Shown: positions 1,683-63,905 of the stretch, one piece after another | How the letters are laid out: each line of letters starts with the position of its first letter | How positions within the stretch are numbered: the first letter of the stretch is position 1 | Virus record (IMG/VR): IMGVR_UViG_3300044535_000472 | Coordinates: 58,615-122,614 of that record | DNA length: 64,000 nucleotides | From: a virus | Direction: 5' to 3' (one strand) | The notes under the pieces: model-generated | What the model saw: the letters and a program-made list of their open reading frames with translations, nothing else | Databases searched by the model: none | Told to the model about the DNA's origin: nothing | Made by a program: the position numbers and the translations under genes

Positions 1683-4600
1683 TTACTGTATCAATGCTTG
1701 TGGGTCTCTAATTAAATCTGGGTTACTACGCTTCCTATCAATACCCAATTGAGTTATATAACCAAAATTATCTAATCCCTGTTGTCTTAATTGTTCAGCA
1801 AAATAATATCCTGGTATTGTACCTTTACTTGCATATTGTGTTTCAATTTGCTGTGGAGCTACTAATCCTTTAAGATCATCTGCTGTTAATATTTGACCAT
1901 TAAGCACATAGTTATCATACTTATCTTGTGTGATATTAAATATACCAGATCCAGGAATATTAACCGTAGCTTTTCCCATAGCCCAAAGAGCTAAGTCTAC
2001 CCAGTCTGATTTTACAGTGCGTTTATACAATGTATTAACAGCTTGAGATTTAGGTATTAATGCTGTAAATACTAAGTCTTTATTATTATTTTGAAACCCT
2101 AATGATTTAGCTTTTTCACCATTAAGTGTAATCTGATATGCTGTCATGTTAGATGAACCAGCAACTGGATACACTCGTATTTGACCTGCAGCTAAATCAA
2201 GCTTGTTAAAGTTTCCTACATTAGCTTGACCTTTAATATCATTTTCTAAGTTGGATAATAAGCCTAATAATTTATCTGCATTTTTAGAATGATTATCTTC
2301 TAAATCAGCCCAGTCCCAATCATTAATATTTTCGTCGCTTACATCAAGTTTATCAAGAAGTTTTACATAAGGCATGTCAACCAAAAATGATTTTTGATAA
2401 TACTTACCATCTTCTTTTCTACTTGCTATACTACCTTTAAGGTTATTGATAAGACCAATTAAATCTTGGTTACCTGTACCAGATGCTAAGTCTACACCTT
2501 CATTAAAGTTAATAAAGTATGGTTGTGCAGTGATACCACCTTGACCCTTATAGCTATCAGCTAAGATATTTCTAGGACTATATGTTTGCAAATCTGTATT
2601 TTTATCTGCAGCTGCAATTCCATATTCTCTTTTAAATGTATCATAGCCTACTATAGGAATTTCTGGAAACTCTAAATATGCAGGAGCTTGACCTCTTTGT
2701 TGTTGAACCGCTGCATAATCTTGATATACCTGCCATTCAGTAGTTCTACCTTCTGAAGTCCAAGTTTCCATTATTGCTTCTTTTAAAAGCTCTTTACCAT
2801 TAACACCCTTTTCATTTAATCTATTAACAATACTTGCAACCTCGGAAGGATTTCCTTCAAATGCTAAATTATCAAACCATGCATTTGGATCATAGTTTAA
2901 TGCCTTATTTCCTTTTTCTGCAAGTCGTTGAGCAATTTTTGGATTTAATTTATTTTGCTCAAGAACAGCACTACGAACTTCTCCTCCAAAAGTAGGGGTA
3001 TATGCACCACCAATACCGGATAATTGTGATGCCCAAGTACCAGCCATATCTGCTTTACCCTCTAAAGAATTTGTTGTTACAATTGCAGCATCCGCCATAA
3101 CATCTGCAGCAGCCCATATCTTAGGATTGTTGTAAATTTGATCTTTAAACTCCTGCTGTGTTTTAACTGCTTTTAACGGTGCTCCATTAGCTGGACTATT
3201 CTCAGCATTAACAGTACCCATTTGTTTAAAGATGTACTTATCCATAAAGTCTCTTAGCTCGGTACCACTACCATAAGCTAACATACCAGGATTAGTTTCC
3301 ATCTTAGCACCTACTTTTGCAATGTTATATTGGTCTACAATTATCATTGCCTTTTCAGTTTGAGACTGAATATTAGCTAATGAAACTTTGTCCATTATAG
3401 TCGTCTTATCAACATCATCTTTAAACAAAGGATCTTTACTATATTCTGCTACTGCTCTATCAAAGCTATCTGATGTAGTAATTCCTAATTTCATATATGG
3501 GAAGATGTCGCTATTTTTAATTTGACCATCATCACCAATAAGCCCTAATCTATCTGGGCCAGGAAACATTTTCTTTATAGATGCTAATGCACTTTTCTTT
3601 TCACTAGGTGTACCATATGCAACCTTGTCTTGATATTTTCTTAGTAATAAATCTACAGTTGTTCCTTTTACATCATCAAGAATTTGATTCTTGGCATCTA
3701 AGCCAGCAGTTATAGCATTTTTAGTTTGAATGTTTTGAGCTGTTAAAGCAAGTCCAGTATCCCATAAATTTTCTAAAAATGATTTCTCTCCAGGTAGTTG
3801 AATATTTTTATATTCTTGAGTCATTTCAGGACTAACTTCACCAACAAGATTTTCACGAGAGTCATCTTCAGATACTAACGGATTAGGCATTAATGTAGCT
3901 AATACTGAAAATTTATTTAAATCAGTTCCTACAATAGTTTTTCTAGCTTCAGTACGAGTTTGATCCGCTAAATAAGTTGGAATACTATCCGTACCTAATG
4001 CAAACTTTGAATAATCTTTAGCAGCATTTACTATAGCTTCTACAGATGCACTATCCGCATTAGCTTCCAAAAGGGCATCAAATTCTGCCTTTCTTGGATT
4101 GTTTTCAGTGAACATGTAACCAAATGGATTTTGGTATTTATTAAATACATATTCATTAAAGTCTTTTACATCAGCTTCAGTTTTTATTACATCTGCTGGA
4201 TTAGGAGCTTCAATAGGTGCATATTTTTCACTAAAAGCTGTATCTTGAAATGCTGTACGTGCGGTATCGCTAGGAGTCGCACTTGCAGTTTGTGCTGTAG
4301 CTGTACCTGCAGTATCACTTGGTGGAACATAATTACTAGCTAATAACGTATCTGCTACAGTAGATGTAGTATCTGGTGCAACAACTGCTGTTGCTGTAGA
4401 ATCTACTTGTGGAATATTTGTTGTAGAAGCTTGACCTGTACTATCTACAGATGATGGTGTAACTGTAGCTGTAGCTGTACTATCTTGGGGTGTAGTTGTA
4501 GTTTGTTGCTGTGTAGTTTGCTGAGAAGATTCTCCTCCACCAGTACTTACACCAGCTTTTTCAGCAGCTTCTTTTTGAGCACCATCACCATCTAAAAATG

Positions 4601-6167
4601 ATAATTGGCTTTTATCAGTAACACCTAGGGTAGCAAGTTTATCTGTACCCATACTATTCCACACAACCTCACTACCATGTCCTCTTAATTGGTGAATATA
4701 AAACTCAAGTTCATTTTCCTTTTTTTCTTTTTCTGATTTACGAGCATTATCATTAGTTGTAGTTCCCGCATCAAGAATACTTTGCAAACCAAATGGATCT
4801 GCACCTGCATCCTCTAATAATAATTTCTTAAGACTATCATCTAAGAAACCTGCTGATTTTCCAGATCTGCCACCTAATCTACTATCCCAAAGTTTTTTCT
4901 CAAGGTCGTTAGCATAATCATAAGCCGCCTTCTTCCATTGGTTTTCTAGCTCCATTGACTTAAGAGAAACCTGATGTGAAAAGTTCAAGTTTTCTAAATA
5001 TATAGGATCAGCTTTTACATCTTGCTTTTGTGTAAGTTGTGCATATGATGAAGCTGCAGTAGCTAAGTCATTACTTAATAAACCTCTAGCCAAAATAGCA
5101 TCAGCTCTAGCAGCTAATGCACTTTGTGATAATCCCTCAGTTGCTGTAGGAGATGTAATATCTAAAGATTGTGTATAGTAGTCATCAGTTTGCTCAGCAA
5201 CTTGACCATCATCATTTAGTCGACGATAGTACTCAATAAGATCTTTATCAAGTTCTGGGTCAACACCCTTTTCCTTAATATAGTTTTCTGCTACTTCTTT
5301 TTTAGCATTAATAGTTTCTTTATTACTCTGAGCTATCTTTTTATTTTCAAGATTGGCTTTATTTTCAGACTCGATAACTTGGCGTATGTAATCTGCTTCT
5401 GCAGCTTGTGCACTACCAAATTCTGATGCTTTTGATTCACCGTATTGCTTACGTTGTAAATAAGCAGATACATTATACATATCGGCAACTTGCTGTTCAT
5501 TACCGTATTTAGAAAGGAAGTAGTTGTACAATGGAACTTCCATTGGAGTACCATTAGTAGTAGTATAAATATAACGACCATCCGAAGACACCGTTTGCAT
5601 TTCTAGTTTACTAGATGTAGCAAATTTTACAGCATCGTCAACTACGTTTACAAATGGAACATACTTAGGTGAGCTCATTGCTAAAGCTTCTTGCTCAGTA
5701 GAGTTAGCAAAATCTTGTGCTTTATATTGCAAATACTGAACACCACCATCCCAATACTTACCGCCGCATTCTTTTGGATTTAAACAATTTCTAAAGAATT
5801 CTGCACGGTCATACTCATTATAAACATCCTTTGTAAAGTTAACATCTTTGGCAAATAACTTATTGGTTGTCAATGGTTTAAACACCTGAAAAGCAGCTCG
5901 TTGATTATCCTCTATAGATAAATCTACACCAGCTAATCTTTGTATTTCATTATTAGCCTTTGAGAAAAAATCATTTCTCATTGTAGACGTATCCTGTCTT
6001 GTAAGAGGTGAGTTTAATAGTGTACCATAAATGCTGTTAACTCGATCATACCCAGCTTCATACTGCGCATTCTTGGTATCAAGAACAGTTTTATAAAAAT
6101 TAAAATCAGGCTGATACGGTTGTATCTGCGGTATGTATTTATTACTTCCTTGTAAGTACGTTGCCAT
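1683..6167 (-). CDS. Giant virion/cargo protein, 1494 aa
   Basis: Large soluble-looking protein with start MATYLQGSNKYIPQIQPYQP. Three parts can be seen: a helical N-terminal half (residues 1 to about 530), a low-complexity linker of Thr, Ser, Gln, Ala and Asp (about 540-680, many repeats of DSTATA, TSTVADT, SDTA), and a second mostly helical half. No signal peptide, transmembrane segment or catalytic motif is recognised. It lies between two other very large genes in the late block, where crAss-like phages encode proteins packed in the virion and ejected with DNA. The linker suggests two domains that act separately or are cut apart. Cargo role is inference; family match judged by eye. Confidence 0.7.
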   Translation of the reverse strand: MATYLQGSNKYIPQIQPYQPDFNFYKTVLDTKNAQYEAGYDRVNSIYGTLLNSPLTRQDTSTMRNDFFSKANNEIQRLAGVDLSIEDNQRAAFQVFKPLTTNKLFAKDVNFTKDVYNEYDRAEFFRNCLNPKECGGKYWDGGVQYLQYKAQDFANSTEQEALAMSSPKYVPFVNVVDDAVKFATSSKLEMQTVSSDGRYIYTTTNGTPMEVPLYNYFLSKYGNEQQVADMYNVSAYLQRKQYGESKASEFGSAQAAEADYIRQVIESENKANLENKKIAQSNKETINAKKEVAENYIKEKGVDPELDKDLIEYYRRLNDDGQVAEQTDDYYTQSLDITSPTATEGLSQSALAARADAILARGLLSNDLATAASSYAQLTQKQDVKADPIYLENLNFSHQVSLKSMELENQWKKAAYDYANDLEKKLWDSRLGGRSGKSAGFLDDSLKKLLLEDAGADPFGLQSILDAGTTTNDNARKSEKEKKENELEFYIHQLRGHGSEVVWNSMGTDKLATLGVTDKSQLSFLDGDGAQKEAAEKAGVSTGGGESSQQTTQQQTTTTPQDSTATATVTPSSVDSTGQASTTNIPQVDSTATAVVAPDTTSTVADTLLASNYVPPSDTAGTATAQTASATPSDTARTAFQDTAFSEKYAPIEAPNPADVIKTEADVKDFNEYVFNKYQNPFGYMFTENNPRKAEFDALLEANADSASVEAIVNAAKDYSKFALGTDSIPTYLADQTRTEARKTIVGTDLNKFSVLATLMPNPLVSEDDSRENLVGEVSPEMTQEYKNIQLPGEKSFLENLWDTGLALTAQNIQTKNAITAGLDAKNQILDDVKGTTVDLLLRKYQDKVAYGTPSEKKSALASIKKMFPGPDRLGLIGDDGQIKNSDIFPYMKLGITTSDSFDRAVAEYSKDPLFKDDVDKTTIMDKVSLANIQSQTEKAMIIVDQYNIAKVGAKMETNPGMLAYGSGTELRDFMDKYIFKQMGTVNAENSPANGAPLKAVKTQQEFKDQIYNNPKIWAAADVMADAAIVTTNSLEGKADMAGTWASQLSGIGGAYTPTFGGEVRSAVLEQNKLNPKIAQRLAEKGNKALNYDPNAWFDNLAFEGNPSEVASIVNRLNEKGVNGKELLKEAIMETWTSEGRTTEWQVYQDYAAVQQQRGQAPAYLEFPEIPIVGYDTFKREYGIAAADKNTDLQTYSPRNILADSYKGQGGITAQPYFINFNEGVDLASGTGNQDLIGLINNLKGSIASRKEDGKYYQKSFLVDMPYVKLLDKLDVSDENINDWDWADLEDNHSKNADKLLGLLSNLENDIKGQANVGNFNKLDLAAGQIRVYPVAGSSNMTAYQITLNGEKAKSLGFQNNNKDLVFTALIPKSQAVNTLYKRTVKSDWVDLALWAMGKATVNIPGSGIFNITQDKYDNYVLNGQILTADDLKGLVAPQQIETQYASKGTIPGYYFAEQLRQQGLDNFGYITQLGIDRKRSNPDLIRDPQALIQ

Positions 6168-6230
6168 AGTTTATACTGTAAATATACGAAAAACTTTTAA
6201 AAGTTACTAAACTTAAAAAGTTTAACTTTC
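6168..6230 (-). promoter_or_regulatory. Intergenic dyads before the 1494-aa gene
   Basis: The 63-bp gap holds two adjacent AT-rich inverted repeats: AACTTTTAAAAGTT (6192-6205, perfect) and AAACTT-AAA-AAGTTT (6209-6223). A near copy of the second lies at 11583-11596 in another gap of the same block. Either a regulatory/protein-binding site or weak hairpins; function unknown. Confidence 0.3.
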
Positions 6231-8825
6231 TTAAATTAATCCTCCAAACATATAAGGTAATGCACCTGTACCTGCTGCTTGTGCGTATTGTGCAAATGCA
6301 GCTGCAGCATTTGGATCACCCATATTATACTGCTGTAACATTTTATTAAACATCTCAACCTCAGGATTTCCAGGATCTTGAATGTTCATACCCTTGCCGC
6401 CAAAAATAAGTTGTGCAGCTTTATCTGCAGAAACACCTTTTTTCATAAGATCATTTATCCTTTGTAATTGTGCTTCATACTCATCAAAAGATTTTTGACC
6501 TGTAAGATCTTTACCTTTATTAAAATATACTAAACCTGATGGCTCATCTATAAGAAACTTGTTACCAGACATTGCCTCAAGATTAGCTGATGTAGCTGCG
6601 TTAACGTCCATAGCATTTTTCAATGCGGTTGTTTGAGCAATAAACTCATTTTGAGTTTGCTTATCATTTTGAATCTTTTGCGTCATTTCATCATAGTAAC
6701 GCTTAGAATTTTCTAAGTTATATGCGTTAGTCTTAAACGCTAAATCTGCACGGGCTTTCTCAGCATTGTTATAAATCTCATTGTTAGCATTAAAGTATTT
6801 ACCTAATGTATTAGCAATTTGATTTGATGCTTGAGCTTGTGTTGAAGCAGCAGCGGCGGCATATCCTTGTGGACTTCCGTAAACACCAGCGGCACGTAGC
6901 GCACCTTGTGCTGTACCCTGTGTTTCAGCAACCTCACGACTTGGATCTAAGTATGCTTGGTTAAAGCTTACTGGAGCCATAGGGAAAGATGCAGGCATAA
7001 CATTAGGTTGGTTTGCACCAATAGCTAAGTTAGCTACCATGTTATTTACATCTGGTCCCCAGTACTGTAGATCAGGTGTTGCTTGTGTATATGTAGGAGA
7101 TTTCGGGGTTTCAACTGTGCTTTCAACATCTTTAACATCTTCAAAGCCTACTCCTTCTTCTTTAAGACCTTTTACAAATAAACCTTGTCCTGCAGTAGTA
7201 TTACCAAAGATATCATCAACAGGAGATATTGCACGTCCTGCAGCATCTTGTTGGTCACTCATACCTCTTGGTACTAATGTAAAGTTCTCAAGTGTTTTTG
7301 CATATTCAGGATCATCAGCCGCAGCTTGAATACCCTTATAGGCAGCTTGGAACATTGCAATTTGATCATCATTAAAAATCTCATCATCTTTAAAACCAAT
7401 ATCTTTAGCTGTTTTTCTATAAACATTGTTTTTATTTCCACCACCTTTATCCCAAGTTTTGTTTTTAGTAATAGGATCAATCTTACCTTCTACTTCCGCT
7501 TTAGTAATTGCAAAGACTTGTTTTTGAGCTTTTAAAAAGTTATCCAAAACTTCTTCTGCACTTTTAGATTTTAAAGCAGCTTTTCTAGATGAGCTAAGAC
7601 CTGAGGCATCAACTTGACGCTTGTACTCTTCATACATGCGATCAACAATACCTTTATTTGCTGGATCTTTTAATACACCTTCAACATAAGAATAGTCATC
7701 AATGTATCCACCAAGACGTGGATCTGTAACATTTGATTTTGGCAATTGTTTAGATACAGTAGTTTTAGTTACTCTTTGGTAGCCACCATCAGCTTTTACT
7801 ACATATACCTCTTGCTTGTTTTTTGCTTTACCAAATTCTTCACGTACACGTTTTTGAAAATCTGTATCAGACTCATTTTCATTACGTGTAATAACCGTAG
7901 CATTCTCGCTAGGTTTAAATTTAGTTACAGTAGTAGTACGTCTTGAAGCTGGCTGTTGATTTCCAAATGGTGTATTAATTATGTTACCATAACCATCTAC
8001 AACATAGGTCATACCTGTAACTCTATCTGTGATAACACGTGGCTGATTTTGTGCAGTGCGCAATTGATTAATACGGCGTTGCATTCTACGCATTTTACCA
8101 CTTTGAGCTTTTGGTAATCCACCATAACGAGCCTGTGGCATTTCACCTTCAGCCATTTCATTATCTTGCATAGCTTCCATTTGCTCATTATCAGAACCAG
8201 CTTGCATAGGCATAAGAGCAGAAGGATCTGCACCTACACGCATTAAGTATGGTAATGATAAAGCTGGAATATCTTCAAAACCTTTGCTAGCTTCTTGAGC
8301 TAATGCAATTTGACCTAGTTTATCAATAGAGTTTTTAATATTTAATTCAGCAGTACTAACATCCATTTTAGTAGCATTAGGATCTGCCATTACTTGTCTA
8401 GCATCATTAATAACACTACCATATTTCTTAGCTGCGTCAGCATAAGAAATTTTAGAAGTTTTAGACTTACCCTTTTTAGCAGGGTATCCAAAGTATTCTG
8501 CTAAGTCCTTTGGCATCTTTAGAAATTTACTAAAGATAAAAGAATCCTCGGTGGCACGCATAGGTACTCCACCATCAGCATGGGAAGGACCATTGATGTT
8601 AAAGTGTGCGGGTAAACCTCCTACATTAGGATCAAGAATGGTTTCGCCACCCTCTGCTTCAATATTAGGATTTTCATAATCTGGTTGTACAGATTTACGT
8701 GCTTCCGTTAAAGGCGCCCCTGCAGTATTGTGCACAGACCAAGGTGCAATTTGCATAGGAATATTGGGGTAGTGTGTACCACCCCTTTTCATTTGCGGAA
8801 GTTTCTTAATAGTAACTTTTCTCAT
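6231..8825 (-). CDS. Virion cargo protein with KIKxLP-type N-terminus, 864 aa
   Basis: The start is MRKVTIKKLPQMKRGG, a variant of the KIKxLPKAQ tag found at 13553 and twice inside the 17831 gene. Residues 55-110 carry a Gly-Gly-rich segment (EAEGGETILDPNVGG, HADGGVPM, then DSFIFS) that by eye recalls a repeat seen in other large Bacteroidota phage proteins. Around residue 235 the sequence ARYGGLPKAQSGK repeats the GG/LPKAQ theme. The C-terminal half is Ala/Asn/Gln-rich and helical (about 620-760), consistent with a coiled or rod-like ejected protein. No enzymatic motif seen. It sits between giant cargo genes; function inferred from context only. Confidence 0.65.
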   Translation of the reverse strand: MRKVTIKKLPQMKRGGTHYPNIPMQIAPWSVHNTAGAPLTEARKSVQPDYENPNIEAEGGETILDPNVGGLPAHFNINGPSHADGGVPMRATEDSFIFSKFLKMPKDLAEYFGYPAKKGKSKTSKISYADAAKKYGSVINDARQVMADPNATKMDVSTAELNIKNSIDKLGQIALAQEASKGFEDIPALSLPYLMRVGADPSALMPMQAGSDNEQMEAMQDNEMAEGEMPQARYGGLPKAQSGKMRRMQRRINQLRTAQNQPRVITDRVTGMTYVVDGYGNIINTPFGNQQPASRRTTTVTKFKPSENATVITRNENESDTDFQKRVREEFGKAKNKQEVYVVKADGGYQRVTKTTVSKQLPKSNVTDPRLGGYIDDYSYVEGVLKDPANKGIVDRMYEEYKRQVDASGLSSSRKAALKSKSAEEVLDNFLKAQKQVFAITKAEVEGKIDPITKNKTWDKGGGNKNNVYRKTAKDIGFKDDEIFNDDQIAMFQAAYKGIQAAADDPEYAKTLENFTLVPRGMSDQQDAAGRAISPVDDIFGNTTAGQGLFVKGLKEEGVGFEDVKDVESTVETPKSPTYTQATPDLQYWGPDVNNMVANLAIGANQPNVMPASFPMAPVSFNQAYLDPSREVAETQGTAQGALRAAGVYGSPQGYAAAAASTQAQASNQIANTLGKYFNANNEIYNNAEKARADLAFKTNAYNLENSKRYYDEMTQKIQNDKQTQNEFIAQTTALKNAMDVNAATSANLEAMSGNKFLIDEPSGLVYFNKGKDLTGQKSFDEYEAQLQRINDLMKKGVSADKAAQLIFGGKGMNIQDPGNPEVEMFNKMLQQYNMGDPNAAAAFAQYAQAAGTGALPYMFGGLI

Positions 8826-13559: not shown

Positions 13560-16500
13560 TTATTTTAAATTGTCCAATACGCTTCTTGTATATTTATTTC
13601 TTTCACCCAATGGGACTAGCACCCCATCTTTTTTCACATTTCGTATATAGTTCTTAAGCATCTTTTCATAAGCTTGTTTTTTTACAGTAGCATCTTTTGT
13701 TGTAGAATACTGATTTGCTGCTCCAAAAAAGTTAGGATATTCTTCTATAGGAAGACCATTATAAACAAAGTCTAATGCAAGTACTTTTAAATCAGGATGT
13801 AACTTATCAAAAGAACCTTTTCCAAATTTTGTTTCATACTGCTCTAATGTGCGATCAAGATGTTCTTCTGCATCATTACGCATTAACGCAATAGCCTCAT
13901 CTTTAGTAAGCCCTTTAGAATATCTGTTAGTTTTAACATCATCATCTGTTAGCTTATGACCATAACCTATTGTATCATTACCACCTTCTTCAGATGCATA
14001 CTGATAATATCTTCCATCTTTTAAACCTTTATTAACACCATTTTCTTGTTGCATCAATCGTGTATAGTAATCTTCAGGTATTTTAAATCTCACAGGTTTT
14101 GGTTTATCAAAGGCATTCATCACTTGATTATATTGATCTAATAAAGTTGGTGTTGGTTGTGGGAGAATTCCCATCTTTTGCATTTGATCAAAAACATCTG
14201 GTGTTTCTGGTGCGGGCTTATAACCATATTGCTGCATCATATTAATAATGCCACCTCCATCTTGTTTTCTTTCTATATAGCGCATTCTTTGCAGCTCAGG
14301 ATCAAATACTAAGTTTTGATTTTTACCTCCCCAGTTACGGTCATTGCTCAACATAAAGTCCTTATACTCCATCCAACCGGTATCTCCAGGATGGGATTCT
14401 CCCGGTATATGAGACTTTAACCAAACACCTGTATCAGGATTAGTACTAAAGCCATGATACATATTATCATAGGGATCTGGCTGCCAGTGTGGATTCATTT
14501 CTAAAGCTTGCTCAAAATTCTCAGGTTTTCCTAAAGCATTCCACATGTTATAGTGATCATATTGTCTAGGGTTACCATATTGCCACTTGGAGTCAGGTCT
14601 TCTATTTTCAGGCGCTGTTTCACTGTAACATAAAAAATCTTCATAGTCATCCGGCAAGCCACCACCAGTTTGAGCTTGATCTAAATATAACTCGAAATCA
14701 CCTTCATCAAACATTTCATCATCTACAATAATATCTTGAAATGCTCTATTTCTATTTGCAAGTATTTCTTCTTCTGTAGATCCTCCAGCTTGTTTTACCT
14801 TTTTAAATCTTTTATCATTAGGATCAAATGGTGCAGCATCATTTGTATTCCAAATTCTACCATACCATGTATTGTAATATGCATCTGATGGAGTACCATC
14901 GGGTTTAAGATCTATGTTTTGATAATAGAAATCACGACCCTTATTTAATAACTGACGTCTATCATTTACTGAAAGTTTATTAATAGCGGGTGCATATTGT
15001 TGCCACAATTTATCTAGCTCTGCCAACTTTGCCGCTACGGCTTTTTTATCAGCCTTAGCTCCATAATAGTCAATATTAAAACTACCTCTATTAGGTAATC
15101 CAGATTGACCTATGCTTTTTAAATATTGATCTAATTGATATATTCTAGGATCTCTACCAGTATTATATATAAAATCAACAGCTTCAGTTTGCTCTGCTGG
15201 AGTAGTATAGTAAGGTTGTGCGATTGGTAAAACATTAGTCATCATCCAATTTATAGCATCATCCCTTTTAGGATTAGTACCTAGTAAAGGATTTCCATAA
15301 TCAGTTAAACCTGTACCATCACGTCTTCCTCTTGCATATTCGTAATCTGCAATTTTACCTATACCTGTTTTTATATCACCAATTAGTTGAGCCTTTGGTA
15401 ATGATTTTATTTTTATTTGTTTAAGACTTGGTATAGATATATCACCACCTTTTTGCTTTCTAGTATATCTAGCGCTACCCGTTCCCATATGAGCTCTAGA
15501 TGTATTTTGCCATATCTCAGGAGTAACTCTATCAGTCCTAATTACATCAAATATTTTTTCTCCTGGTTGACCTTTAAAAGCATAATGTGAAAATGGATCT
15601 AACTCTCCAAATGCGTTTTGTGCAAAACCACGATAAACTTTTGGATCTAAAAACATTTCTTTAAGAACTACTTTTAACGGAGCAAGCTCAGGCTTAATAT
15701 CATAGTAAGCTCTCATAAAATCATAGTAAGACATTTTAGCATAATCTAATAAGTTAGGGCTATCTTTAAACACAAGATCATCTTCTCCAGGTGTCCAACT
15801 CATAGAACGGCTTTTGTCATAATCAGCTGCCAGTACCCCTCTTCTGTTTTTGGGATTTGTTGCTTTTGCCAAAGCATCTTTCTTATTTCTAAATTTTCTT
15901 TGCATTGGCCACGCATCGGTCTGCGCTTTTCTATATACATCATCAAGACCTTGAGTTAACCTATGTTGTTTCATAGGATCTTTTGTAACATATACAAAAT
16001 CTCTAATAGATGTTGGTAATCTTTTTTGATAGTCATTTGCTACAATACCTGTTCCATATGGGGAACCCCTAAATCCATAGTTAATTGGATATTCATTTGC
16101 TGATATCCAATCTAGTCTATTTGATGATGAGAAATCTGTAGGACGTCTTAAAGTAACAGAATAGCCATCGCCATAAGTATAACCCTCGGCATTAGGTTTA
16201 GAGTTTGATACGTATAGTGCATGTTCCCCTTTCTTTAAACCATATCTACCATATCCAGTTTCTCCTGGTATGTGGGATGCCATATACTCTGCAGCAGCTT
16301 GAGGATTTGTTTCATAGTTAATCCCCTGCGCTTCTAACTCTTTAATTAATTTACTCCAAGCATTTTCTTCACCGAGCCATCTACCACTAAGAGTTTCTTT
16401 AACTTTAGGCCAATTGGTACTAACACCTCTTACAAAAGTGTTATGCCTATTTAACAAACCTCTAAAAGTCATGTCAGTAAGCATATCTGATTTTGCAACT

Positions 16501-61892: not shown

Positions 61893-62285
61893 ATGAGCAC
61901 ACTACAATTGACATTTGCGCGCCAGTATCGCAAGAAACAAACTGGCAAGTTGGTATTCGTGTATAATGTGAAGGGCACTGCCGCACAATTAGATGAGTAC
62001 CGTGATGCACAGGGTAGTTACCTTGTGGAAGATGAGAAAGGACAACCATTGTTCTTTACATCTCGCTATGTGGGTGAGTCTTGCCCGCTTGTTGCTAACC
62101 ATAACGGGGACGGATTCTATGCCGACACCACGGAGATGGACAAGCAAGCTGCGATGGTGCAGCAGTTTGGTGGTAATTTGGGCCAAGCGTTGGCTGCACA
62201 GATTGCTGCAAGCGTTGCGGGTAAAGGTGTTGCTACCTCACAAGTGGCAAGTGCACCAGTGTCTAAAGGATTAGGCACAGTTTAA
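61893..62285 (+). CDS. Paralogue B of a small early-type family, 130 aa
   Basis: Start MSTLQLTFARQYRKKQTGKL. Shares the whole core with paralogue A (FVYNVKGTAAQLDEYRDAQG; EDEKGQPLFFTSRYVGE; TEMDKQAAMVQQFGGNLGQA; final GLGTV). The linker to the last GLGTV is Val/Ala/Ser-rich and differs in length. It has a long AT-rich leader and no copy of the promoter-like cassette, but has its own terminator. GC content is higher than the late genes. The identical C-terminus in both paralogues may be a functional tag. Function unknown. Confidence 0.7.
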   Translation: MSTLQLTFARQYRKKQTGKLVFVYNVKGTAAQLDEYRDAQGSYLVEDEKGQPLFFTSRYVGESCPLVANHNGDGFYADTTEMDKQAAMVQQFGGNLGQALAAQIAASVAGKGVATSQVASAPVSKGLGTV

Positions 62286-62346: not shown

Positions 62347-62400
62347 TAGTATTGCAATGTACAATGAAGTGCGACAAATGAACGCGCACTAGATAGCTAA

Positions 62401-62545
62401 GGGATTGTAGTACGAGTACTCTTCCCTGTATTAATGCATCATAACTTACTTCACAAGGGTAAGCAGTTATTACGTTATGGAAAACACGCGGCTCATACCT
62501 AGTCTTTAAGGACACTATGCCATAATGTGATAACTGAATGCAGAG
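62401..62545 (+). ncRNA. Structured RNA candidate, copy 1
   Basis: Elements in order: a leading hairpin (GGGA...AGTAC-GA-GTACT...TCCC, 62401-62426); outer stem TGCAT/ATGCA (62435-62439 with 62538-62542); small hairpin CTTAC...GTAAG (62445-62463); and a 17-bp stem (62464-62480 with 62520-62536, two G-U pairs) around a 39-base loop. The sequence AACTG-AATGCA closes it. Copy 2 at 63.8 kb has the same order and the same 17-bp length with paired base changes. The strand is assumed from neighbouring genes. Not a tRNA; no known class recognised. Confidence 0.6.
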
Positions 62546-62556
62546 TGGTACAATAG
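62546..62556 (+). promoter_or_regulatory. TGGTACAATAG box before the 78-aa gene
   Basis: The same 11 bases occur at 61536-61546. TACAAT resembles a -10 box, but no good -35 partner is visible. Stands 30 bases before ATG 62587. Weak. Confidence 0.3.
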
Positions 62557-62586
62557 AATGTTTAACCCTTTAATACTTATACGTAT

Positions 62587-62823
62587 ATGTATATAGGAAG
62601 CGAGAAGGCCCAAGAGTTGGGTAACCGGGCTATTGATAACCCGAGTTTATTGGACAGGCTAGATGAAGATACCTTTATCAAGTTTGTTGTGTGTATATCT
62701 AAACACGATAAGTCATTAGCCTCAAGGGTATTTGACTTAAAGTATGATAAGATATCAGCCCAAGGTAAAGTTTTATTTTGGGAAGCAGTAGGAATGTTAA
62801 CTAAACCAGAAGAGTATGTCTAA
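62587..62823 (+). CDS. Unrecognised small protein, 78 aa
   Basis: Start MYIGSEKAQELGNRAIDNPS. Helical with charged residues (LLDRLDEDTFIKFVVCISKH, VLFWEAVGMLTKPEEYV). It overlaps the start of the 62-aa gene by 8 bases, so the two are probably translated together. First gene behind RNA copy 1. No family recognised. Confidence 0.6.
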   Translation: MYIGSEKAQELGNRAIDNPSLLDRLDEDTFIKFVVCISKHDKSLASRVFDLKYDKISAQGKVLFWEAVGMLTKPEEYV

Positions 62824-63004
62824 AGTCATATTGTTTTTCTACTTGTTAACCGGGAAGGTTGAGAAGGTAGACGGGTTGTATACGATACATACTACTGAGA
62901 GTTCTGTTATTGAGTACGCTTGTGAGGGTGAAGTATTAGAGTATATAGAGACAGGTGTCTTTAGATATGATGATAACCTTGCAAAGCCAGGTGAGTTGGA
63001 ATAG
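62816..63004 (+). CDS. Unrecognised small protein, 62 aa
   Basis: Start MSKVILFFYLLTGKVEKVDG. A hydrophobic start (VILFFYLLT) and beta-rich remainder (GLYTIHTTESSVIEYACEGE). It overlaps the previous gene by 8 bases. The start could alternatively be considered a short signal-like region, but a cleavage site is not evident. Unknown function. Confidence 0.55.
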   Translation: MSKVILFFYLLTGKVEKVDGLYTIHTTESSVIEYACEGEVLEYIETGVFRYDDNLAKPGELE

Positions 63005-63065
63005 GTAGGAAGCCGGGGAGTTTTGTGATGATTTTCTCCCCGTGCTGTTCTATATTTTTGAAACA
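63005..63065 (+). promoter_or_regulatory. Leader with CGGGGAG/CTCCCCG hairpin
   Basis: GTAGGAAGCCG (63005-63015, identical to 61568-61578) runs into a perfect 7-bp hairpin CGGGGAG (63014-63020) / CTCCCCG (63036-63042). There is no T-tract, so it is more likely an RNA leader structure of the next gene than a terminator. Confidence 0.4.
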
Positions 63066-63479
63066 ATGTTTAACTTAACACCTAATAAAATGGAAAGAAG
63101 GTCGTTTGCAATTGGGCTTGCTATAGCCTCAGCAATCTGGATTGGTACAATGTGTATGTATTTATATGCACAACCAAGTACAGAGTCTAATGTAGAACCG
63201 CATGTGGTTTATGGATATCCTCCTCACAGTATCTGTGATACTCTTGTAGTTGGAGATAGTCTCTTACAACACGAGAGAGTAGTTTACTACGAGCGTGGTT
63301 ATTTTACTTGTCTTCGTGATGCAAACCCAAGAATGTATAACGCCTATATATTAGGAGTATATCAATTAAAGGGTGTTGAAGATTTTAATGTTATTGACAG
63401 TGTTGTATCTGATTTGGCTTTTCAATATAAGTTTAGCCCTGATGATCGTGAATATTTATACACATTAATAACTGATTAA
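63066..63479 (+). CDS. Single-span membrane protein, 137 aa
   Basis: Start taken at MFNLTPNKMERRSFAIGLAI (63066); MERRSF at 63090 is possible. One transmembrane helix (FAIGLAIASAIWIGTMCMYL, about residues 14-33) preceded by Arg residues is followed by an external soluble part of about 100 residues (PSTESNVEPHVVYGYPPHSI ... DDREYLYTLITD). The layout N-in, C-out suggests a periplasm-facing early membrane protein. Followed by the 72-aa gene after 1 base. Function unknown. Confidence 0.65.
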   Translation: MFNLTPNKMERRSFAIGLAIASAIWIGTMCMYLYAQPSTESNVEPHVVYGYPPHSICDTLVVGDSLLQHERVVYYERGYFTCLRDANPRMYNAYILGVYQLKGVEDFNVIDSVVSDLAFQYKFSPDDREYLYTLITD

Positions 63480-63480
63480 G

Positions 63481-63699
63481 ATGACAAGAGAACTTGCTAG
63501 AATTAAGACCATACAGAAGTTTACTAACTTACTTGATGGCACGTTGTTACCAGGATATAGTGTGGCTCAAGTAATTAGTTACTATGAGTCACAGCTTCTT
63601 GGTGTTCCTACTGATAATATTAGTAGGATAGATGGTATCACCGCTAAATTTATGGAGGATTATATAAATAATCTCGATGATGGTGATCAAATATTGTAA
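63481..63699 (+). CDS. Unrecognised small protein, 72 aa
   Basis: Start MTRELARIKTIQKFTNLLDG. Helical ends with a short beta-turn centre (YSVAQVISYYESQLLGVPTD; KFMEDYINNLDDGDQIL). It stands one base behind the membrane protein gene and just before RNA copy 2. No family recognised. Confidence 0.6.
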   Translation: MTRELARIKTIQKFTNLLDGTLLPGYSVAQVISYYESQLLGVPTDNISRIDGITAKFMEDYINNLDDGDQIL

Positions 63700-63700
63700 A

Positions 63701-63905
63701 GTGAAGAATGCATACAGCACTATAAAAATACTTATGGTAAAGTTAAAACGCATTCTGTATCTTTACAATCTATTATGCATTAACCCGCAAGGGTGAACAG
63801 TTGTGATATTTATCTCGCAGACCTTGTACTAAAGTGGAGTGCCCACCTTGGAAGCTGATAGATATTACAACTGAATGCATAATTATTTATAGCCCATAAG
63901 GGCAA
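63701..63905 (+). ncRNA. Structured RNA candidate, copy 2
   Basis: Elements in order: AGAATGC/GCATTCT (63705-63711 with 63750-63756) and GTAAAG/CTTTAC (63737-63742 with 63761-63766), which compete; outer stem TTATGCATT/AATGCATAA (63773-63781 with 63874-63882, perfect 9 bp); hairpin ACCC-GCAA-GGGT (63783-63794); and a 17-bp stem (63798-63814 with 63857-63873) around a 42-base loop holding AAGTGG/CCACCTT. A GCCC-ATAA-GGGC hairpin (63892-63903) follows. Same order and lengths as copy 1. Class unknown. Confidence 0.6.

Follow-up and report, generated by a model that had tools for sequence, protein, structure and literature searches.

The DNA analysed here, which we call the window, is the last 64 kb of an IMG/VR record of 122,614 bases. 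Its major capsid protein matches the Pfam family Crass_capsid, which marks the phage as crAss-like (Crassvirales). The late genes of the window run leftward, and a cluster of small ORFs runs rightward from about 57.7 kb. Two structured elements, both on the + strand, are found at the right end. The first, E1 (62427–62552), sits between an ORF at 61893–62285 and the first ORF on its 3′ side, at 62587–62823 (+ strand, 78 aa), which starts 34 nt past the element and gave no match in Pfam or PHROGs. The second, E2 (63773–63882), follows an ORF at 63481–63699, close to the record end.

Anatomy of the two elements

A preliminary description had reported that both elements carry an outer stem TGCAT/ATGCA, a small hairpin containing AAGGGT, and a 17-bp stem directly followed by AATGCA, and had taken them for two copies of a structured RNA with compensatory changes. 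All of these stems were found at the places given. Of the 17 pairs in the long stem, 7 have both letters changed between E1 and E2 and 2 have a single letter changed, and every pair forms in both elements. When the whole window was scanned exhaustively for stems of 17 bp, with GU pairs and loops of 30–50 allowed, the + strand gave just these two and the − strand gave none. Two further helices of E1, the P1 stem and a pseudoknot (T1) between a loop and the 3′ tail, had been missed. The comparison of the stems was right, but it is predicted to have set a live element against a dead relative.

From its 5′ end, E1 starts with the P1 5′ strand UGUAU (62427–62431; partner GUACA at 62548–62552) and a predicted cleavage site U^AA (62432–62434; cut 62432^62433). 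These are followed by the P2 5′ strand UGCAU (62435–62439; partner AUGCA at 62538–62542), by C62440, and by the P4 hairpin CUUAC-UUCACAAGG-GUAAG (62445–62463), which contains the AAGGGT. The loop of this hairpin, L4 (62450–62458), holds both G62457, which is the predicted partner of C62440 in a reduced T2 contact, and the T1 5′ half CAC (62452–62454; partner GUG at 62545–62547). The P5 arm (62464–62536), delimited by folding, the stem scan and arm replacement, consists of the 17-bp stem (62464–62480 paired with 62520–62536) and a 39-nt variable terminal part. The element closes with a segment (62538–62552) made up of the P2 3′ strand, GA (62543–62544), the T1 3′ half and the P1 3′ strand; G62543 is the predicted catalytic base. 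Directly 5′ of E1, folding gives a + strand hairpin AGGGA...TCCCT (62400–62427), possibly terminator-like or a P0 stem.

E2 is built from a closing stem (TTATGCATT at 63773–63781 with AATGCATAA at 63874–63882), a small hairpin ACCC-GCAA-GGGT (63783–63794) and a 17-bp stem (63798–63814 with 63857–63873). A model of the family described below, R2, scored it at 17.1 bits (E = 0.03 in 64 kb), compared with 76.7 bits (E = 2.8e-19) for E1. The core of E2 reads UA-UGCA and UGCA-UAAUU; the second A of UAA is gone and UAAUU replaces GAGKG, so that neither the UAA nor the GA/T1 tail of a twister core was found. With these losses E2 is a relative of E1 rather than an equal copy: it still has the hairpin and the 17-bp stem, but its cleavage site and pseudoknot tail are gone. 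The counterparts of E2 in two related phages are plain long hairpins, in which the closing stem is kept and, in one, the side hairpin is gone. This hairpin-like evolution and the core losses lead us to predict that E2 is non-cleaving, probably a twister relative without a cutting site and dead for catalysis.

A second structured-RNA motif (TTGTAAAG...ATACAGCACTATAAAAA...GCATTCTGTATCTTTACAA) lies directly 5′ of E2, at 63694–63768. Its inner letters are conserved within stems that vary yet keep pairing. Up to three tandem copies are present in L012, and the motif also occurs in L002, L005 and L065; it may be another ribozyme or a regulatory RNA. The phage group of the window has a gene for a Ro60-like RNA-binding protein (phrog_850, about 450 bits) a short way 3′ of the element (G000:C1:1776–3140; L065:10407–11873; G016; G494), and E2 or the adjoining CAGCACTATAAAAA motif could be its Y-RNA-like partner. 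A Ro60/Y-RNA system was rejected as a general explanation of the family, because just 4 of 35 records have phrog_850 close to the element.

A family of covarying RNAs in crAss-like phages

The preliminary description had proposed a covariance-model search of related phages, a covariation check and a search of Rfam. A pattern drawn from E1 and E2 (AAGGGT, CAGTT, AACTGAATGCA) matched seven IMG/VR stretches, two looser patterns added more, and a 5′-half pattern, TAATGCAYCA-N7-9-TTCMCAAGG, matched at least 120; in all, over 120 further copies were obtained from IMG/VR. The matched stretches have the architecture in common, but the long arm is wholly different among them. When whole records were searched, each phage carried one to three copies, in a single orientation per locus. 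A Crass_capsid protein, with matches from weak to very strong, is encoded in all 35 large element-bearing records tested, and R2 matched in 34 of these. Among cultured phages, blastn with the core gave chance matches only, and R2 matched none of six genomes of crAss-like phages and their relatives, from culture or reference sets, crAss001 among them; a 13-bit score in crAss001 was set aside, as it reads as ordinary coding sequence without the UAA-UGCA core. Nine pattern matches were obtained from 84,980 bacterial and archaeal species, eight of them by chance and one real (L233), on a short contig of a MAG that is presumably phage.

Pairing was measured on two alignments. In the model R1 (21 elements), 94% of cells were paired and double changes occurred in 15 of 23 pairs, compared with 8.4 in shuffles. 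In the alignment A2 (45 cores), 95.3% of cells were paired, with double changes in 19 of 26 pairs. The A2 covariation score was 0.448, compared with 0.157 for shuffles and far lower values for slid registers (at most 0.118), and none of 500 shuffles scored as high. Kinship alone can lift covariation over shuffles, a caution that comes with the covariation tool used; however, the slid controls keep the relatedness and yet fail. The many relatives and the strong covariation bear out the earlier proposal of a structured RNA under selection.

P4 had double changes at all five pairs with 100% of cells paired (A2). P1 also had double changes at all five pairs, but only 76% of its cells were paired; its paired fractions ran from 0.56 to 0.84 where shuffles averaged 0.42 to 0.72, and it beat all 200 shuffles at four of five positions at offset 0 only, slides of one or two failing. 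In P2, the fifth pair covaries between C-G and U-A and the third pair changes from C-G to U-A. The variable T1 pair joins position 4 of the loop (M in UUC[M]CAAGG) with position 4 of the tail (K in GAG[K]G); it was C-G in 103, A-T in 27, T-A in 1 and other in 4 of 135 elements. The neighbouring T1 pair changes from C-G to A-U in two further elements, giving covariation at two of the three T1 pairs. This exchange of loop base with tail base indicates a pseudoknot between the P4 hairpin loop and the 3′ tail. For T2, one C-G pair is possible (C62440–G62457 in E1) and a second pair is Y-G at most; the C and the G are invariant in 45 of 45 rows, which leaves no covariation to read. UAA and the active-site GA (G64 A65) are likewise invariant in A2. 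Because the scans were seeded on core letters, the invariance of seeded letters, including UAA, is partly imposed by the scan patterns, although UAA, GA and T1 are also present in loci found with other seeds. P5 abuts P4 without an unpaired base, and one A is left before P2, in 122 of 132 elements.

Relation to twister ribozymes

A twister ribozyme comprises P1, U-A-A, a short P2, a hairpin loop CCCAAG that pairs to a tail GGG, and GA before this GGG; P3 and P5 are optional, and P3 is missing in about 20% of annotated twisters (PMC5408937). The two overlooked helices of E1, P1 and T1, combined with U^AA...GAGKG, give the anatomy of a type-P1 twister. The preliminary description had not been able to match the element to twister, which no longer holds: with P1 and the loop–tail pseudoknot, E1 has a full twister core, with all catalytic positions present and with the letters seen in Rfam twisters.

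Rfam itself does not report this relation. In the window no family reached its gathering score, and only unrelated, chance-level matches were obtained at E ≤ 10; the short-armed relative L132 gave no relevant match at either threshold, and the twister-P1 model (RF03160) gave no match at E ≤ 10 in 12 phage records. To test the identification against real twisters, RF03160 matches were sought in genomes of the class Clostridia. The first genome set contained no twister, so a second class search was made. The comparison set consists of six matches in 5 of 391 genomes, with 44 to 59 bits and E values of 5e-7 to 3e-11, under the curated gathering score of 67.2.

The phage elements and these six twisters have in common the core U-AA-UGCA...UC(N)CAAG...UGCA-GAG(K)G, which is letter-identical in the closest cases. 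The core of twister L240 reads UAA-UGCA-GC...GGUCACAAGCC...UGCA-GAGUG and that of E1 UAA-UGCA-UC...UUCACAAGG...UGCA-GAGUG; the segment UGCA-GAGUG of E1, which contains the predicted catalytic G, is identical in L240 and L243. UAA is at the same place in five of the six twisters and GA in all six, and the P2 strands UGCA/UGCA of E1 recur in L239, L240, L242 and L243. Within the phage loop UUCMCAAGG, the segment UCMCAAG fits the known twister loops UCACAAG and UCGCAAG, and the variable middle pair of T1 takes the same states in twisters (A-U, C-G and, in L239, G-C). The phage elements thus have U-A-A with P1, P2, T1, the conserved P4 loop and the active-site G, in the strand order of RF03160. 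Furthermore, R2, which was built from phage elements only, ranked all six twisters at the top when run without filters on the 18 kb around them. They were found in the right register at 17.8 to 8.4 bits, the weakest tying with the best other match; this cross-match is modest and draws on P1-UAA-P2 and the tail, the middle being skipped by the model.

The phage elements differ from RF03160 twisters in that they are without P3 and have a long P5 abutting P4, and the Rfam model misses them. In known twisters T2 joins GC of L2 with GC of L4, whereas the phage elements have YC and GG at these places, a reduced contact. P2 has five pairs, the fifth covarying, compared with four in twister. As the Y of the phage L2 also pairs with an R in P2, we infer that P2 was lengthened to five pairs and T2 shortened to one, with the length of the stack kept. 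With these differences allowed for, E1 is very probably a divergent twister self-cleaving ribozyme of type P1, with P5 present and P3 absent.

Other classes fit less well. Twister-sister (RF02681) shares the name and a vague resemblance with twister but differs in the cleaved strand and has no pseudoknot (PMC5408937), and it matched none of 16 records at E ≤ 10. The HDV-like theta ribozymes of gut phages are also small self-cleaving ribozymes of tailed phages, but they have another fold and are described with phage tRNAs (PMC10879173). The window is without any tRNA, which sets aside a tandem tRNA-like or tmRNA reading. A search of the open-access literature found no prior description of the phage element. 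The Rfam twister models undercount the twister class, missing a form that occupies a recurrent place, among early genes with co-directional neighbours, in a large and abundant order of phages.

Genomic setting, arm exchange and possible roles

Gene context was counted in the 103 elements with enough flank. The next gene downstream is co-directional in 92, and 76 lie between two co-directional genes; the start of the downstream gene is often 27 to 55 nt from the element. A hairpin with dG < −8 kcal/mol was found just 5′ of the cleavage site in 51% of 120 elements, compared with 3% of shuffles and with 31% when the same criterion was applied 300 nt upstream. Of 36 distinct phages scanned, 7 carry a pistol or hatchet ribozyme that shares the strand of the element and is no more than about 1.1 kb away from it, and no ribozyme match was found elsewhere in the roughly 425 kb scanned. 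The pistol matches (RF02679) are at L066 9675–9735, L072 7491–7552 (L072 and L016 being the same phage) and L077 10393–10456, and the hatchet matches (RF02678) at L123 5635–5767, L129 6387–6553, L134 191–325 and L147 46–208. Both have folds other than that of the element, and neither Rfam model matched at the element itself. What twister ribozymes do for bacteria and phages is, to our knowledge, still little understood; an element that recurs in this way, often close to pistol or hatchet, offers a direct test of how self-cleaving ribozymes act in phage transcripts.

The P5 arm evolves differently from the core. Between the window and phage L012, 500 nt upstream are 99.2% identical, the 5′ and 3′ core 100% and 280 nt downstream 96.8%, but the two arms, of 73 and 128 nt, show 47.7% identity, less than arms do after shuffling (58%). 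Such replacement of a whole RNA arm in place between near-identical phages was unexpected and calls for explanation. Conversely, arms 80 to 100% alike occur in unrelated flanks; L017 and L020 share 141 identical arm nt, with flanks at background identity. The 132 arms fall into 110 clusters, and one arm family searched across IMG/VR was present only inside elements. The P5 arms are modules that pass from element to element, and recombination via the conserved core is the simplest account of this.

The sequence, the covarying P1, P2, P4 and P5, the T1 pseudoknot, the twister core and the position between co-directional genes are observed. Every step beyond the fold we infer, as follows. In an early transcript, the P4 loop would dock onto the GAGUG tail, and the E1 RNA would cut itself between U62432 and A62433. 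The upstream RNA would gain a 2′,3′-cyclic phosphate end shortly past a hairpin, and the downstream mRNA would begin with a 5′-OH end capped by the folded ribozyme and P5, with the first ORF some 30 nt further on. P5, the exchanged module, would be dispensable for the core. In bacteria, a 5′-OH end with a stable leader would probably slow decay that depends on the 5′ end. The separation and trimming of early polycistronic messages is the role that we favour by a small measure. Circularisation by an encoded RtcB ligase was rejected, since RtcB was present in none of 35 records. The reading as a whole, a divergent twister (E1) that processes messages in the early-gene region of a Crassvirales phage, with E2 dead, has in our estimate a probability of roughly 0.8.

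A bolder and rather doubtful extension of this reading is a Crassvirales-specific twister subclass whose hypervariable, recombination-swapped P5 is under diversifying selection; the ribozyme would then serve as a reusable chassis for payloads that vary, and the arm might sense a ligand, divert host defence as a decoy or act in trans as an RNA. A related alternative, about as doubtful, makes the arm itself the functional product, with the ribozyme releasing or displaying either a small RNA that acts in trans or, as in a natural aptazyme, an arm that binds a ligand. The arms are indeed long, folded, very diverse and exchanged as units, and one family of five keeps its fold with one pair doubly changed; however, no arm target, ligand or protein partner was found, arm covariation is weak, and L132 and L024 have almost no arm.

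Less probable still is a twister-derived, non-cleaving leader, in which catalysis is lost or very slow and the fold stabilises or regulates the downstream mRNA. E2, predicted dead, would show that non-catalytic relatives exist, and in many phages some 30 nt separate the folded element from an ORF that follows it. Against this, nearly every element preserves UAA, GA and the T1 bases, for which there is no evident need beyond catalysis, and P1 and the cleavage site are retained. A separate RNA class with a twister-like core reached by convergence would account for the failure of the Rfam models, the lack of P3, the reduced T2 and the obligatory long P5, but it is quite improbable given that each core segment, and the variable T1 pair as well, agrees in letters and register with the real twisters. 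Hardly credible is a DNA element recognised in folded form, such as a recombination site or replication hairpin: arms do behave as exchanged cassettes, but the stems contain GU pairs, the specific pseudoknot covaries, one orientation relative to genes prevails (92/103) and RNA catalysis explains the ribozyme core; the GU pairs, gene-oriented strand and covarying pseudoknot likewise set aside an integron attC-like hairpin.

Several smaller observations were made on the element family and its phages. Tandem elements occur at L031 2925–3256 (− strand), L148 9205–9515 and L013 417–767, and in the first two the second element begins directly past P1 of the first. Divergent elements (UUUAAUCAG-UCUCCCAAGGG) without the usual P2 5′ strand were found in L003, L004, L006 and L066 (8408–8541). 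The crAss-like phage L077 has a match to the Rfam freshwater-1 RNA (RF02979) at 15073–15134. The element-bearing record L025 contains an array of 22 predicted tRNA genes (4466–8121), one of which, with anticodon CTA, was assigned as tRNA-Pyl and might act as an amber suppressor.
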